35,592 nucleotides of DNA. Origin: a virus. Made by a program: the position numbers and the translations under genes. This document shows, piece by piece, positions 4,834 to 32,962 of the stretch. The stretch's first letter is position 1. Every line of letters starts with the position of its first letter. A model generated the notes under the pieces. It saw only the letters and a list, made by a program, of their open reading frames with translations, was not told the origin of the DNA and made no database searches. The stretch spans positions 1-35,592 of the IMG/VR virus record IMGVR_UViG_3300028394_000187. One strand, 5' to 3'.

Positions 4834-4979
4834 TCAAGCGCCATTTCTGCGCGGATGCGCGTGTTTTCGTTGTCGTCGTCCAGCAAGGCGCGCAGCGCGT
4901 CTTCCAATTCGTTGATGCGGTGCAGCAGGGCGGCGGTTTGGGTGTCGCCGTTGATGTATGCCTGGTGTTCTGTAATCAT
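4830..4979 (-). CDS. Small helical acidic protein, 49 aa
   Basis: A 49-residue frame starting MITEHQAYINGDTQ, with an amphipathic central helix (ALLHRINELEDALRALLDDD) and an acidic run. A strong Shine-Dalgarno (GGAGGT) sits 7 bp upstream of the ATG, and the start overlaps the stop of the 99-aa gene by 3 bp (ATGA). It is probably a small coiled-coil or adaptor protein; no family is recognised. The good ribosome site and coupled overlap argue that it is real. Confidence 0.75.
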   Translation of the reverse strand: MITEHQAYINGDTQTAALLHRINELEDALRALLDDDNENTRIRAEMALE

Positions 4980-5275
4980 GTTTGCACCTCCAATTCAGGC
5001 CATATATTCATCTCACAATTTCTTATTAAATCAGCGTCCGCATAATTGTTAAAGCCGCCCGCTATCCACCATTGGGCGCATTCATCATCTAAACATTCAG
5101 GGTTGTCGATTAAATACCGCAGCTCAAATTTAGTCAGCGCGTAGATCATGGCTTGCCGTTGTAACGCTGCGGCTTCGGCGCGGTCGTTAAAGCAGTTATC
5201 GCCTTTTGCATCCGTCAAATATTCGCCTTCAGCGTTTATAACCATCCACCCATCATAAGTTTTAATAATTTTCAT
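4976..5275 (-). CDS. Hypothetical protein, 99 aa
   Basis: The protein starts MKIIKTYDGWMVINAEGEYLT and runs 99 residues. I chose the ATG at 5275, rather than the longer frame to 5344, because GGAG lies at the right distance upstream and because the longer frame would cover the 36-aa gene that overlaps this start by 4 bp. The N-terminus looks like a small beta sheet (a modifiable-residue or display-type fold common in phage early proteins), followed by a helix with AEAAALQRQAMIYAL. Several Cys and Trp residues occur in the C-terminal half. Function unknown; operon position suggests an early host-takeover protein. Confidence 0.8.
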   Translation of the reverse strand: MKIIKTYDGWMVINAEGEYLTDAKGDNCFNDRAEAAALQRQAMIYALTKFELRYLIDNPECLDDECAQWWIAGGFNNYADADLIRNCEMNIWPELEVQT

Positions 5276-5382
5276 GCTAAATACTCCAAAAGAATAGCGG
5301 CCAAAATTAAGCCAATTGAGACTGCAAGCAGGGCATCCGCCCAAGGGCGGGGGATAGGGGCGGGTTTGTAGTGTTGCCTCAT
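5272..5382 (-). CDS. Small single-pass membrane protein, 36 aa
   Basis: A short frame starting MRQHYKPAPIPRPW, followed by a hydrophobic helix (ADALLAVSIGLILAAILLEYLA). The basic N-terminus and single membrane segment suggest an N-in membrane micro-protein. It overlaps both neighbours by 4 bp: its ATG lies in the stop of the 57-aa gene and its TGA in the start of the 99-aa gene. The ribosome site GAGGTGACG is encoded in the tail of the upstream gene. Function unknown. Confidence 0.68.
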   Translation of the reverse strand: MRQHYKPAPIPRPWADALLAVSIGLILAAILLEYLA

Positions 5383-5552
5383 GCCGTCACCTCTTCAATG
5401 CTTTCTAAGTCCCATGACGCATTACCCTCGCCCCATGACTTGTCAGAGGCTAATTCATCCCATGCAAGTTGTTCTGCTTCATCTTGACTTTGCGCCTCGA
5501 CGTACATATTGACATAAGACACGCGCTTCAGTTCTACTTGGTAGCTTTTCAT
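5379..5552 (-). CDS. Hypothetical small protein ending EEVTA, 57 aa
   Basis: A 57-residue acidic protein starting MKSYQVELKRVSYVNMYVEA, with a helix containing QSQDEAEQLAWDELA. The pattern of an N-terminal strand followed by a helix rich in A/E resembles small phage DUF proteins that share a Q-A-x-S-x-x-E-A core, but I cannot name a family. It ends EEVTA because its last codons also serve as the GAGGTGACG ribosome site of the next gene. The same arrangement is seen at its own start. Confidence 0.75.
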   Translation of the reverse strand: MKSYQVELKRVSYVNMYVEAQSQDEAEQLAWDELASDKSWGEGNASWDLESIEEVTA

Positions 5553-5719
5553 ATCGTCACCTCTTCCAGTTGTTCTAAAAATGCAATTGCGTCATTTAAC
5601 GCCTCGCCTATAGTTTCGTCGCTTCCGTCACTTTTCTTTCTTGCTTTGGTTGCGCTAAACAATGCGTTACGCACGTCGTAAAGGTCAAAAAGGACAATTT
5701 GCAGTTGTTCTAAAGTCAT
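5549..5719 (-). CDS. Hypothetical small helical protein ending EEVTI, 56 aa
   Basis: A 56-residue, largely helical protein starting MTLEQLQIVLFDLYDVRNAL, with a basic patch KARKKS in the middle. It ends LEEVTI; the codons for this tail form the ribosome binding site of the following gene, whose ATG overlaps the TGA stop. Its own start is preceded by the same GAGGTGACG element. No family recognised. Confidence 0.75.
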   Translation of the reverse strand: MTLEQLQIVLFDLYDVRNALFSATKARKKSDGSDETIGEALNDAIAFLEQLEEVTI

Positions 5720-6090
5720 GCCGTCACCTCTTCAAAAATAGCGTCCAGGCGGCTTTGCGAATCGGCGCAAAGTCTGGCTAAGTTTGACTTGGCCTCGGTA
5801 ATGGCGTTGTAAACCATGTCTTCATAATAGTCACCAGTTAAAAAGTCTTTTTGGCTTTCATATAGGCAACAACCTAGAAAGTCTGTACCTAGCAAGATGC
5901 CTTGTTGGTACGCCTCAACCCTTACGGCAAACCATTCATAAGTTCCATTGTCAATCTTGCGGTGAATTTCTGATATATCTTCAACGCTAGCGTCGAACAT
6001 ATCTTGAGGCGGCGTGTCTTCCCATGTGGTGCTGCACACGATATGGAAGCCTTGCGTGTCTTCCGTGTGGATGATGTCGTAATGTCTCAT
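5716..6090 (-). CDS. Hypothetical early protein, 124 aa
   Basis: The largest protein of the leftward operon, starting MRHYDIIHTEDTQGFHIVCSTTWED. It is acidic and rich in aromatic residues; a central stretch (WFAVRVEAYQQGILLGTDFLG) looks like two beta strands, and a helix at the C-terminus ends FEEVTA. This layout is common in conserved small phage proteins of unknown function. Start and stop both overlap neighbours by 4 bp as ATGA. Its C-terminal codons provide the ribosome site of the next gene. Confidence 0.85.
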   Translation of the reverse strand: MRHYDIIHTEDTQGFHIVCSTTWEDTPPQDMFDASVEDISEIHRKIDNGTYEWFAVRVEAYQQGILLGTDFLGCCLYESQKDFLTGDYYEDMVYNAITEAKSNLARLCADSQSRLDAIFEEVTA

Positions 6091-6284
6091 GCTGCTACCC
6101 CTTCAATCGAAGGTATATCGGTGCAGATGCACAATATTTGTTCAAAGCGCGGCGCGCCTAGTAGGCTTTGCACGATCACGTTTCGGCCCGTGTGGGTGTA
6201 AGAAACCACGCGCATGGTCTTGCCATGCACAGAGATGTATTGGCCTATTTTGTAATTGGCCTTGGGGATGAATGCGAATGTCAT
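6087..6284 (-). CDS. Hypothetical small beta-rich protein, 65 aa
   Basis: A 65-residue protein with alternating hydrophobic and polar residues (KIGQYISVHGKTMRVVSYTHTGRNVIVQSL), suggesting a small beta barrel. The ATG at 6284 has AAGG about 8 bp upstream. It overlaps the 124-aa gene by 4 bp. About 90 bp separate it from the next upstream gene, and this gap carries three dyads that may control it separately from the first gene of the operon. Function unknown. Confidence 0.78.
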   Translation of the reverse strand: MTFAFIPKANYKIGQYISVHGKTMRVVSYTHTGRNVIVQSLLGAPRFEQILCICTDIPSIEGVAA

Positions 6285-6312
6285 TTTGTAGCCTTTACTG
6301 TAGTTGATAAGT

Positions 6313-6328
6313 AAGCGCCAGGGCGCTT
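6313..6328. repeat. Small GC-rich hairpin in the operon gap
   Basis: AAGCGC-CAGG-GCGCTT can form a 6 bp stem with a 4-nt loop upstream of the 65-aa leftward gene. There is no U tract after it in either direction, so a terminator role is weak; it may be a leader-RNA hairpin. Confidence 0.4.
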
Positions 6329-6335
6329 GGTTGAT

Positions 6336-6358
6336 AGTGTAAGGGAATTCCTTACACT
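6336..6358. promoter_or_regulatory. Operator-like palindrome AGTGTAAGG-5-CCTTACACT
   Basis: A perfect 9 bp dyad with a 5 bp centre. On the leftward strand it covers the spacer and -10 of a possible promoter (-35 TTGCAA at 6358-6363, -10 TACACT at 6336-6341, 16 bp spacer) in front of the 65-aa gene. Its half-site with the flanking T (TAGTGTAA) recurs in the larger dyad at 6773-6817. A repressor site is the simplest reading; the promoter itself is weak. Confidence 0.5.
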
Positions 6359-6361
6359 TGC

Positions 6362-6392
6362 AAGGGTGTCAATTTACAAAATTGACACCTTT
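6362..6392 (-). terminator. Long hairpin over the stop of the 81-aa gene
   Basis: The arms GGTGTCAATTT and AAATTGACACC pair perfectly over 11 bp around a 3-nt loop, extended by G-U and A-T pairs. It overlaps the TAA of the 81-aa leftward gene. The flanking T tract is short on both strands, so this may be an attenuating terminator, an RNA-processing or stability hairpin, or a second operator. The position at the gene end favours an RNA role. Confidence 0.45.
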
Positions 6393-6619
6393 GATCGATT
6401 GTTGACGATATACGTAGGCGCGCCGTCAATTGATAAGTAAACAGTGCTTTTAGGTGTGCGCTGCTCAAGCGCAAAGGTTGCAGGCCGCCAGGTTGCAAGG
6501 ATAGCGATAGTCTGATTATGCGTTAAAAGGCCGCGCACTTCATAGATAGCAAGCGCGGATTCTAAGTAGTCGCGGGTTGGGCAATAGATAGGGGGCATAA
6601 GGGGGGATTTTGAGGGCAT
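6374..6619 (-). CDS. First gene of the leftward operon, hypothetical 81 aa
   Basis: An 81-residue basic protein starting MPSKSPLMPPIYCPTRDYLESAL. The middle contains a possible helical pair (ESALAIYEVRGLLTHNQTIAILATWRP), which could be a small helix-turn-helix-like or adaptor fold, but no family is recognised. A good ribosome site (GGAGA) and a strong promoter lie directly upstream, so it is the first and probably most expressed gene of the operon. The stop is inside a long hairpin. Confidence 0.78.
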   Translation of the reverse strand: MPSKSPLMPPIYCPTRDYLESALAIYEVRGLLTHNQTIAILATWRPATFALEQRTPKSTVYLSIDGAPTYIVNNRSKVSIL

Positions 6620-6641
6620 GGTGTAGTCTCCGTAAAATTAC

Positions 6642-6670
6642 AGTATAGCGTAAAAATGTAGGGTTGTAAA
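6642..6670 (-). promoter_or_regulatory. Sigma70-like promoter of the leftward operon
   Basis: On the minus strand, TTTACA (plus 6665-6670) and TATACT (plus 6642-6647) are separated by exactly 17 bp; each matches consensus at 5 of 6 positions. The predicted start falls in TGTAATTTTACG (plus 6631-6642), which is nearly the same as an arm of the dyad at 6773-6817. It lies about 15 bp before the 81-aa gene's ribosome site. Confidence 0.75.
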
Positions 6671-6772
6671 TAGTGGCGTATGGCTATGTGTTTGGCTATG
6701 CTTTTTTGCGTGTCTCATAGGGGGAAATCAATTGTAGGCTATGTTGGTAGTTAGTTATCTTTGGATTTTGAA

Positions 6773-6817
6773 TAGTGTAATATTACGTTATAGTTATGGT
6801 AACGTAAAATTACACTA
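6773..6817. promoter_or_regulatory. 18 bp operator-like inverted repeat
   Basis: TAGTGTAATATTACGTTA (6773-6790) and TAACGTAAAATTACACTA (6800-6817) match at 17 of 18 positions around a 9 bp centre. The right arm repeats the CGTAAAATTACA present at the leftward promoter start. A weak rightward promoter (TTTGAA, 16 bp, TATAGT at 6789-6794) lies across it. Probably a repressor or activator site; a cruciform or RNA hairpin is also possible. Confidence 0.6.
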
Positions 6818-6936
6818 AACCCTTAGACAAACTGAAAACGCGAAAAAAAGTGCCTACATGACCCACACCGCAAACTCCGCGCAAAAATTGACCGCCGCAT
6901 GATGTAGGCAATGTAAGTCAACAAAAAATTACACCT

Positions 6937-6971: not shown

Positions 6972-7020
6972 TGCAACATGGTTGGCATAGCCCACATGAC
7001 CCACATCCGCCAGGGAATAC

Positions 7021-7103
7021 GCTTGTCATTCTGCTAACTATATGCTTGTCATTCTGACTAGCATATCCCTTGCCTTTTTGCCTAGGGATTGCTTGCCATT
7101 TTG
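7021..7103 (+). repeat. Iteron-like array: four 13 bp repeats at 23-24 bp spacing
   Basis: GCTTGTCATTCTG at 7021 and 7044 is identical; CCTTGCCTTTTTG at 7068 matches at 9 of 13 positions; GCTTGCCATTTTG at 7091 matches at 11 of 13. The starts are 23, 24 and 23 bp apart, just over two helical turns. It lies about 130 bp before the terminase small-subunit gene. Such arrays are usual for replication initiator or terminase small-subunit binding. Confidence 0.7.
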
Positions 7104-7230
7104 CGTAAAGTTTTAGCCAGGGGGGAGGGGGTAGGGCCGACGCGATGGGCCAACGTAAACGGAGGGGCCACAAACAAAATTTTTTTTAATGTAAACTTCC
7201 AGCACACGCCTCCCAGGCGCAGGAGAACAA

Positions 7231-17879: not shown

Positions 17880-19634
17880 ATGGCACTTACTAAAGTTTCT
17901 TATTCAATGATTCAAGGTGCGGTAATTAACGCGCTTGATTATGGCGTTGTTACCGATGGAACAAACACTACCGCAAGTTTGCAATTAGCCATAACTGCCG
18001 CTGCGGGTAAAGCACTTTATTTGCCTTCTGGTACATACTCAACAACAACGGCGCTTACATTGCCTGCAAACATTACGATCTTTGGTGATGGGCCTACTAA
18101 ATCAATTGTCAAAAGAATTGGGTCTGGTACTGATAACTTATTTGTTGCTACTGACATTTCAAATATTAGTTTTAAACAAATGGGATTTTATGGCAATAGC
18201 CAAGCAAGCACAGCTCTTAACGGCGATGCAATTTTTTACACTCAAACTATATCTTCTACAGTTGCAAATAAAAATATTTACATAGATTATTGCAACTTTG
18301 ATAATTTTAAAGGTGACAATTGGGTTTACATTGCAAATGCAAACACTACTTATACAATAAATAATATTCGCATTACAAATTGTAATTTTACCTCTTATAC
18401 AGGGAATTGCCGAGATGGGACAAGTATTGGTGTAGCTTCAAACTGTATTACTATAACTGGTACTAATGTTGTTGGCGGCGCAAAAGTTGTTGATATTTGG
18501 GTTGAAAACAATGTTGCTAATAACTATTACATAAAAATGTTTTTTGCTATGTACTACGGTTGCGAAAGGGCGCACGTTGTAAGCAATACCGTTCTTAGCA
18601 ATGGCCTTGACCCTGCTATTGCAAACGATACCGGCGCGTATGCGTTTTTAGCTTATGGTGGCACGGCAAAATGCAACAATGTTTCGTACATCGATAATAT
18701 TGTAGAAGGCGTTAAGTCTTGCGGTTTTTACAATGCAGGAACTACTAATTTAAGAATTATTGGCAATCGTGTTTATAGCCAAACTGATACCATTGTATCA
18801 ACTTTGCCTAAAGGCGCTTACATTTGTAACAGCACACAAAATGTAATTATTGCAAATAATCAAGCAGAAGCAATTTTAGCTTATGGTGTTTACTTTATAC
18901 CACCAAGTAATCCTAGCGATGGTAATATGGATATACATATCTCTGGCAATAATTTAAAAACTTGTGCTACGGGTATATACATTTTTCAAGGAAATGGAGA
19001 ATCAAGAAATATTAATGTTGATAACAACACCATTACAAATTTTACCGCTTTTGGAATTCGTTTAGCATCTTCTGGCGCATACACCATGCAGGAAGTGTAC
19101 ATCCACGATAATTTAATTACAACAACTACTGCGTCAACGTATGGAATTATTTATGCTTCATTAGACGCAAACTATGTTATTTATACGGTAGATATTTCAA
19201 ATAACACAGTTGCAACGCCATCAACAGGCATTCAATACAATAGTGTAACGGCGGGATATATATCCATTGACAACAATAAATTTTTAGGTGATTTTTCTGC
19301 GTATGCTTTGGATATAGCTGGCTGCACAAAAATGATTGTTGCAGATAATTCATTTATAAATCAATCTACTGGTTATTGTTTTAATTCTACCGGCGCTCAA
19401 GGTTCGTTAAAAAATACTATTTTTGAAAATTGCGCTACAAGTAGAATTGTTGTATCTACTGGGTCAAATGATTTTGGTCTTGATGCACCTAATTGGACAC
19501 CAATAGGCATCGGCCCTTTTATGCAAAATTTGGTGGCTGTAGAAGCTGGATCAGCCGCTTCAAAGTATGTTAATAATGGATGGTATTACACTGGCACAGC
19601 GTGGCTTGAGCAACGTACATTAACTGGAAACTAA
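17880..19634 (+). CDS. Beta-helix tailspike (pectate-lyase-like fold)
   Basis: A 584-residue protein with DYGVVTDGTNTTASLQLAI and ALYLPSGTYSTTTAL at the N-terminus, the standard start of phage right-handed beta-helix tailspikes. Residues 100-500 show regular coils with repeated short N-rich, I/V-rich units (NIxIxxxNN), as expected for the helix. It lacks a virion-binding domain of its own (that sits on separate upstream genes). Its body uses AT-ending codons much more than the neighbouring genes. It probably binds and may cleave a surface polysaccharide; no catalytic residues can be assigned by eye. Confidence 0.85.
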   Translation: MALTKVSYSMIQGAVINALDYGVVTDGTNTTASLQLAITAAAGKALYLPSGTYSTTTALTLPANITIFGDGPTKSIVKRIGSGTDNLFVATDISNISFKQMGFYGNSQASTALNGDAIFYTQTISSTVANKNIYIDYCNFDNFKGDNWVYIANANTTYTINNIRITNCNFTSYTGNCRDGTSIGVASNCITITGTNVVGGAKVVDIWVENNVANNYYIKMFFAMYYGCERAHVVSNTVLSNGLDPAIANDTGAYAFLAYGGTAKCNNVSYIDNIVEGVKSCGFYNAGTTNLRIIGNRVYSQTDTIVSTLPKGAYICNSTQNVIIANNQAEAILAYGVYFIPPSNPSDGNMDIHISGNNLKTCATGIYIFQGNGESRNINVDNNTITNFTAFGIRLASSGAYTMQEVYIHDNLITTTTASTYGIIYASLDANYVIYTVDISNNTVATPSTGIQYNSVTAGYISIDNNKFLGDFSAYALDIAGCTKMIVADNSFINQSTGYCFNSTGAQGSLKNTIFENCATSRIVVSTGSNDFGLDAPNWTPIGIGPFMQNLVAVEAGSAASKYVNNGWYYTGTAWLEQRTLTGN

Positions 19635-32592: not shown

Positions 32593-32727
32593 CTGCATGG
32601 CGTCCTTCAGGTCGCCGCGCAGTTGCTCAATGGCGTCCTGTTGGGCTTGCATTCGTAAATACGAATCCAAAGCGAATTTCGCTAAGGTTTCGTGGTTCCA
32701 CGCGGCGAAGTTGGGTAGGTCTGACAT
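32557..32727 (-). CDS. Small helical leftward protein, 56 aa
   Basis: Starts MSDLPNFAAWNHETLAKFALDSYL and continues as a coiled coil (RMQAQQDAIEQLRGDLKDAM). Proteins with this MSDLPNFA start are common in phages of Proteobacteria (recall). It is the last gene of the right-hand leftward chain, overlapping the end of the 111-aa gene in another frame, and its 3' end is inside the endolysin gene. The ribosome site (GAG 11 bp upstream) is weak. Confidence 0.72.
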   Translation of the reverse strand: MSDLPNFAAWNHETLAKFALDSYLRMQAQQDAIEQLRGDLKDAMQLVRASTFSVDD

Positions 32728-32962
32728 TTGGTTTCTCAGTTGGTTTGGGGCAGTTCTCTGGCGCGACGATAACGCACCACACCGCAGTCCATTGTTTACG
32801 GTGGGCTATCCAGCGGTCAATGTAGGCGTCAGGCATTTCAGTTAACGCACGCCGCATGGGGGGAGGTTCTTTTTCCAACCGCTCAGCTATGTCAGCAACG
32901 GTCAAGCCGTCGTGATACTGCTGGAGCAACATCCGTATGGCGTGGTGGTTTGACTTATGCAT
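32627..32962 (-). CDS. HTH-type small protein, 111 aa
   Basis: The N-terminal part (MHKSNHHAIRMLLQQYHDGLTVADIAERLEKEPPPMRRALTEMP) is a winged or simple helix-turn-helix pattern, LTVADIAERL followed by VRRAL-type helix, and WTAVWCVIVAPENCPKP follows. The last 35 residues overlap the next gene in another frame and look like read-through of a shorter ancestral end. A DNA-binding regulator is plausible and could read the TAGTGTAA sites, but that is inference. Its start overlaps the upstream stop by 8 bp. Confidence 0.72.
   Translation of the reverse strand: MHKSNHHAIRMLLQQYHDGLTVADIAERLEKEPPPMRRALTEMPDAYIDRWIAHRKQWTAVWCVIVAPENCPKPTEKPNVRPTQLRRVEPRNLSEIRFGFVFTNASPTGRH

Follow-up and report, generated by a model that had tools for sequence, protein, structure and literature searches.

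An orphan phage gene and three symmetric sites as a candidate autoregulated cassette upstream of the terminase genes of freshwater podoviruses

The CI repressor of phage lambda acts through three-site operators, with looping and autorepression (PMC4557085), and the stoperators of mycobacteriophage repressors are asymmetric, numerous and spread genome-wide (PMC9283540). The locus studied here lies on a 35,592-base contig of a lake-water virus of bacteria (hereafter the window, meaning the whole stretch of DNA analysed). It resembles the lambda CI/Cro type in that a small phage gene lies by several short dyads, one over its own promoter and the others distant. Unlike that type, it encodes a member of an orphan family of 81-84 aa without a recognised helix-turn-helix, has three sites only, and is located in a window in which no lysogeny genes were noticed. 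With the stoperator systems it shares the presence of several site copies outside the main promoter; its sites, however, are symmetric and restricted to a single gap, and the 35.6 kb scanned contain a single further exact copy of their core outside 6632-6813, at 18382 within coding sequence.

Another likeness is to the HicAB type II toxin-antitoxin systems. Paired CGTAATATTACG palindromes, of the same sequence as in the window, occur 28-30 bp apart in two unrelated contigs (L126, 12942-12979; L134, 4384-4421), where they adjoin genes that were named HicA/HicB-like by eye, and similar pairs are found in L124, L127, L128 and L136. The pairs in L126 and L134 are probably an antitoxin operator. 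The window differs from them in having a single gene without a Pfam or PHROG family, no such gene pair beside the sites, and three sites instead of two, and the resemblance between its sites and the HicAB operators is probably convergent. The TyrR box, in turn, has the consensus TGTAAA-N6-TTTACA. Its TGTAA/TTACA half-sites recur in the dyad of a second promoter of the locus, P2, but the spacing there (TGTAA-N9-TTACA) is one base longer, and in the phage promoter the dyad covers both spacer and -10.

The left part of the window contains genes for PolA and a DUF5906 primase-helicase followed by a set of small leftward genes, and TerS, TerL and a P22-like coat gene are read rightward. The named phages closest to the window, DSL-LC05 and ctNMl277, come from lakes or springs, and DSL-LC05 is virulent by prediction (PMC10611076). 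The window was compared with 80 loci that have a related TerL. The group is a widespread one of freshwater podoviruses, among which the gene content of the leftward operon differs from relative to relative. The features discussed below are listed in Table 1.

Table 1. Coordinates in the window of the predicted genes, promoters and sites of the locus
Feature	Position	Strand	Remarks
Leftward small-gene operon, predicted to be driven by P2	4976..6284	-	ORFs 6087-6284, 5716-6090, 5549-5719, 5379-5552, 4976-5344; ORF calls
Hairpin at predicted 5' end of P2 transcript, stem AAGCGC/GCGCTT	6309..6328	-	Followed by first gene of leftward operon
P2, predicted promoter of the remainder of the leftward operon, TTGCAA-16-TACACT	6328..6363	-	Includes 19-bp dyad TGTAAGGGAATTCCTTACA (6338-6356), which is the 6335/6352 pair
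Palindrome GGTGTCAATTTACAAAATTGACACC	6365..6389	.	Just upstream of P2 -35; overlaps stop codon of 81-codon gene
81-codon gene, proposed autoregulator	6374..6619	-	Orphan family; two helices and beta meander predicted
O1, GTAAAATTAC	6632..6641	.	Adjoins -10, over predicted start of P1; core invariant in gene-bearing phages
P1, predicted promoter of 81-codon gene, TTTACA-17-TATACT	6642..6670	-	Consensus match
Half-operator GCGTAAAA	6646..6655	.	Upstream of O1, between promoter hexamers; kept in alignment of relatives
O2, GTAATATTAC	6777..6786	.	145 bp upstream of O1; core intact except for one mismatch in L115
O3, GTAAAATTAC	6804..6813	.	27 bp from O2

The initial annotation had drawn attention to this gap as the place of a family of TAGTGTAA sites. 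Exact copies of the string or its complement are present at 6335, 6773 and 6810, as it had reported, and so are the one-mismatch copies at 6352 (AAGTGTAA) and 6638 (TACTGTAA); further one-mismatch copies lie at 6646 (TAGCGTAA) and 7187. With up to one mismatch, the string shows no enrichment over the window as a whole (23 copies versus 19.3 expected). Between 6284 and 7230, there are seven such copies versus 1.1 expected and three exact ones versus 0.05 expected, and none of 5000 Markov simulations reached either count. A copy with two mismatches is also present at 6929, where it had been placed, but that site is not conserved in the relatives. The same is true of the long arms of one of the two palindromes that had been described: the 18-nt arms at 6773-6790 and 6800-6817 and the smaller dyad at 6331-6363 do both exist in the sequence, but the arms are lost in relatives.

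When relatives are compared, the natural unit of the copies at 6638, 6773 and 6810 is not TAGTGTAA, which spans merely the outer half of each conserved block, but GTAAWWTTAC, each copy being itself a dyad. In close relatives, where a lack of conservation of the half-sites had been named beforehand as refuting the one-regulator reading, the sites are strongly kept if the 81-codon gene is present. The 18-nt inverted repeat at 6773-6817 was rejected as a unit, as it is not conserved and consists of two inverted operators; 13 contigs contain a match to the long-dyad pattern TAGTGTAATN{20,34}ATTACACTA. We also rejected a rolling-circle nick-site string, TAATATTAC, within O2, because the remaining copies have TAAAATTAC or a similar sequence there, and the assignment of all sites to one family, as their distribution and half-site spacing differ.

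The three operators, O1, O2 and O3, share the 10-bp core GTAAWWTTAC, which is usually CGTAAWWTTACG. In the exact copies (n = 17, from six phages) the core is preceded by C or T and mostly followed by G. That a copy falls on the start of a predicted leftward promoter had been pointed out in the initial annotation and holds for O1 and P1; the -10 and predicted start are a classical place for a repressor. Within the region, P1 is the closest match to a promoter, in a scan whose total (5 versus 4.0 in shuffles) is about that of chance. In close gene-bearing relatives, its -10 region is TATACT or TACAAT and its -35 hexamer is not kept, so the assignment of P1 rests mainly on the -10 region and on position. 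In the window and in the same relatives, which have the three sites in the same positions, O1 precedes the start codon by 22 bp (20 in L115). The distance between O2 and O3 is 38-44 bp in relatives, and the 18-nt arms occur in the window only. The spacing of O1 and O2 is 144-147 bp in five phages versus 162 bp in a sixth (L130), and a fixed helical phasing is therefore unsupported. An element similar to GCGTAAAA is also found ahead of the O1-like site of L130. Between O1 and O2, a stretch around TTTTTTGCGTGTCTCATAGGGGGAA (6692-6747) is conserved among the gene-bearing phages and, in part, in the gene-less L105, L112, L012 and L015.

Close relatives of the 81-codon gene, with 73-95% identity, were found at five viral loci (L111, L113/L114, L115 and L116), which represent four further phages; L113 and L114 are identical over the stretch. 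The differences among the copies are mostly in third positions, which indicates coding constraint. No family for the 81-aa protein was found in Pfam, PHROG or the PDB, and no relatives of it in the bacterial genomes and annotated phages in which they were sought. AlphaFold gave two models of moderate confidence (pLDDT 79) with two helices and a three-stranded meander and no clear helix-turn-helix, and fold searches with the model returned no significant match. The 81-84 aa proteins would constitute a new orphan family, undescribed in the libraries searched.

The gene and the operators travel together. All three sites are present in each of the six distinct phages that carry the gene, five of which are closely related, with a single core mismatch among them (Table 1). 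Whereas the gap of the window contains three GTAAWWTTAC cores, none was found in 71 distinct terminase-upstream regions (196 kb) of gene-less relatives. Three of the gene-less phages (L002, L004 and L006) have a TerS 100% identical to that of the window and no cores, and the pattern therefore goes beyond what phage kinship alone would give. When 2.9 million viral contigs were scanned without regard to the gene, with only the operator pair, i.e., two cores in a row, as the pattern, the matches were known carriers, unrelated contigs and, in addition, L130, a distant member of the phage group (TerS 62%, TerL 76%). Its cassette is inverted relative to TerS and comprises the pair, 162 bp, the single site and a rightward gene 54 bp downstream. 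The 84-aa product of this gene aligns end-to-end with the 81-aa family, with an hhalign probability of 90% (E 1.7e-6) and 25% identity, and it ranks first among the non-members when 16,051 ORFs are searched with a profile (E 0.0013). The presence of a homologue in an inverted cassette argues that gene and sites move jointly despite inversion and large divergence.

We consider it fairly probable, at roughly 70%, that O1-O3 and the 81-codon gene form a cassette that regulates itself and encodes a member of an undescribed protein family. As relatives have the sites only where they have the gene, the 81-aa product is the probable binder of the O sites. From the conservation of the sites, their co-occurrence with the gene, the inverted cassette and the coding constraint, we infer DNA binding, the direction of its effect and the part played by O2 and O3. 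The 81-aa protein, probably as a dimer, would bind O1 across the -10 and start of its own promoter P1 and thereby repress transcription of its own gene. O2 and O3, about 145-190 bp upstream, may serve as auxiliary sites that raise occupancy through cooperativity or looping; alternatively, they may control a further promoter in the interval that precedes the terminase genes. The gene would move together with its operators as one cassette. This provides a function hypothesis with exact predicted sites for a phage protein family undescribed in the libraries searched, and the hypothesis came from the co-variation of DNA sites and not from protein similarity.

The co-occurrence could also be explained if the binder is encoded at another place and gene and sites were simply inherited together on one segment of DNA. 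In such a case, a host protein or another phage protein would bind the O sites and the 81-aa protein would be merely cargo under that control. This is consistent with the lack of a recognisable DNA-binding domain in the 81-aa protein and with the ability of cassettes to carry operators for a resident regulator. We nevertheless regard it as unlikely, given that gene-less phages with a nearly identical TerS are also without O2 and O3, although some gene-less relatives share a portion of the O1-O2 interval (6692-6747), and that all three sites accompany the gene even in the inverted cassette of a distant phage. Far less probable is a different role for the palindromes, as cruciforms, terminators of transcription, or iterons for replication or partition. 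The long inverted repeat of the window and the proximity of the gap to replication genes (PolA, DUF5906 helicase) would suit such a role, but the 18-nt arms are confined to the window while relatives keep the short dyads, no T-run follows the palindromes, and one site falls exactly on the predicted promoter start.

The proposal that one regulator acts on all TAGTGTAA copies, including the 6335/6352 pair, and that the HTH-type protein encoded at 32627-32962 is a candidate for it, has in its favour the string GTGTAA/TTACAC, which or a near match of which is common to all copies, their clustering far beyond chance, and the half-site common to the dyad of P2 (TGTAA-N9-TTACA) and the core of the O sites (GTAA-N2-TTAC). 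We find it quite improbable. The half-sites are 9 bp apart in P2 but 2 bp apart in the O core, and P2 dyads occur in dozens of phages without O sites. Moreover, the P2 -10 in relatives is TACAAT or TACATT besides TACACT, and because of this variation the TAGTGTAA match at 6335 is partly accidental. The HTH-type protein is encoded in L001, L004, L012 and L105, which are without O sites, and in no other near-complete relative searched, those with the 6335/6352 element included; in the gene-bearing relatives, which are partial contigs, its absence is uninformative. As this distribution fits neither class of site, the protein is an unlikely binder of the O sites or of the P2 dyad. What stands of the proposal is that O1, O2 and O3 very probably share one regulator, with the 6335/6352 pair separate and the site at 6929 not conserved.

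In the autoregulated-cassette reading, the 6335/6352 pair would lie outside the circuit, as the dyad of promoter P2, and it is probably the site of a different regulator than O1-O3. With an nhmmer profile, the P2 element was found in about 40 relatives, where it immediately precedes the first leftward gene; nearly all of these phages are without the 81-codon gene. Its consensus on the minus strand is of the sigma-70 type, with TTGNNA or similar, 16-17 bp and TACA(A/C/T)T, and the dyad, whose family consensus is TGTAAR-N7-YTTRCA (also given as TGYAAR-N7-YTTACA), lies over the spacer and -10. In L002, L003, L007, L054 and L081 the same 19-bp dyad is found also, or instead, at the place of O2, and a real operator with its own binder is therefore favoured. 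The palindrome upstream of P2 differs by lineage; GGTGTCAATTTACAAAATTGACACC is present in the gene-less L009, L016, L105, L109 and L112 as well, degenerate in L019-L021 and altered in L113. In L037, L039, L061 and L066, two P2 dyads lie exactly 38 bp apart upstream of TerS.

A few nucleotides after the -10, most of 39 leaders have a hairpin, the stem sequences of which differ between phages. In an equal-length subset of 14 sequences, two of the seven pairs change on both sides, and one of 500 shuffles, a control that ignores kinship, reaches the covariation score. RNAalifold predicted no pairs for the whole P2 alignment, because the hairpins differ in length, and a search of Rfam gave nothing near the gathering score. 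The hairpin would lie at the extreme 5' end of the mRNA, a place at which such structures are known to slow decay. The main leftward promoter of a widespread freshwater podovirus group is thus defined, including a covarying hairpin at the predicted mRNA start.

Other dyads occupy the same gap in other members of the group. Seventeen gene-less relatives (L001, L004, L006, L008, L009, L011, L012, L013, L015, L016, L019, L020, L021, L078, L105, L109 and L112) carry ATTTCACATTATGAAAT at the place of O2 and O3, about -390 to -640 from TerS. About twenty relatives with another, more distant type of TerS (63-72% identity), among them L032, L033, L037, L044, L047, L053, L055, L056, L060-L062, L064, L066, L072-L074, L077 and L079, carry TAGTGGCCACTA in one to four copies, frequently with a spacing of 24 or 33 bp. 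These lie 180-470 bp upstream of TerS, nearer to it than the O2/O3 place, and could be late-promoter operators or packaging-related sites. No gene cluster was found in every carrier of a dyad class and in no other phage. The presence of different dyads in different members suggests that regulator-operator modules may be exchanged at the position upstream of the terminase, and it makes this gap a testable case of such exchange. As a more speculative extension, which we think rather unlikely, the 81-84 aa proteins would represent a new fold or family of DNA-binding proteins with CGTAAWWTTACG as its recognition sequence, one of several interchangeable regulator-operator modules (GTAAWWTTAC, ATTTCACATTATGAAAT, TGTAAGGAATTCCTTACA and TAGTGGCCACTA) swapped in this gap among otherwise similar lytic phages, as an immunity-like specificity switch without evident lysogeny.

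Several further elements were seen in the region before TerS. A stretch just ahead of it in the window (7092-7200), GGGGGAGGGGGTAGGGCC...AAAATTTTTTTTAAT, is conserved and common to both TerS types, and is a candidate packaging site or late promoter. In L091 (MW202483), six to seven copies of GTTTACRTAAAC lie among small leftward genes within 1 kb upstream of TerS. Short repeats, GTTGGCTAT and CCCACATGACCCACA, are found 190-450 bp upstream of TerS in L003, L012, L021, L026, L081 and others; they form inverted repeats, with arms of up to 22 bp in some relatives, and similar sequences are present in the window at 6852-6867 and 6990-7005.
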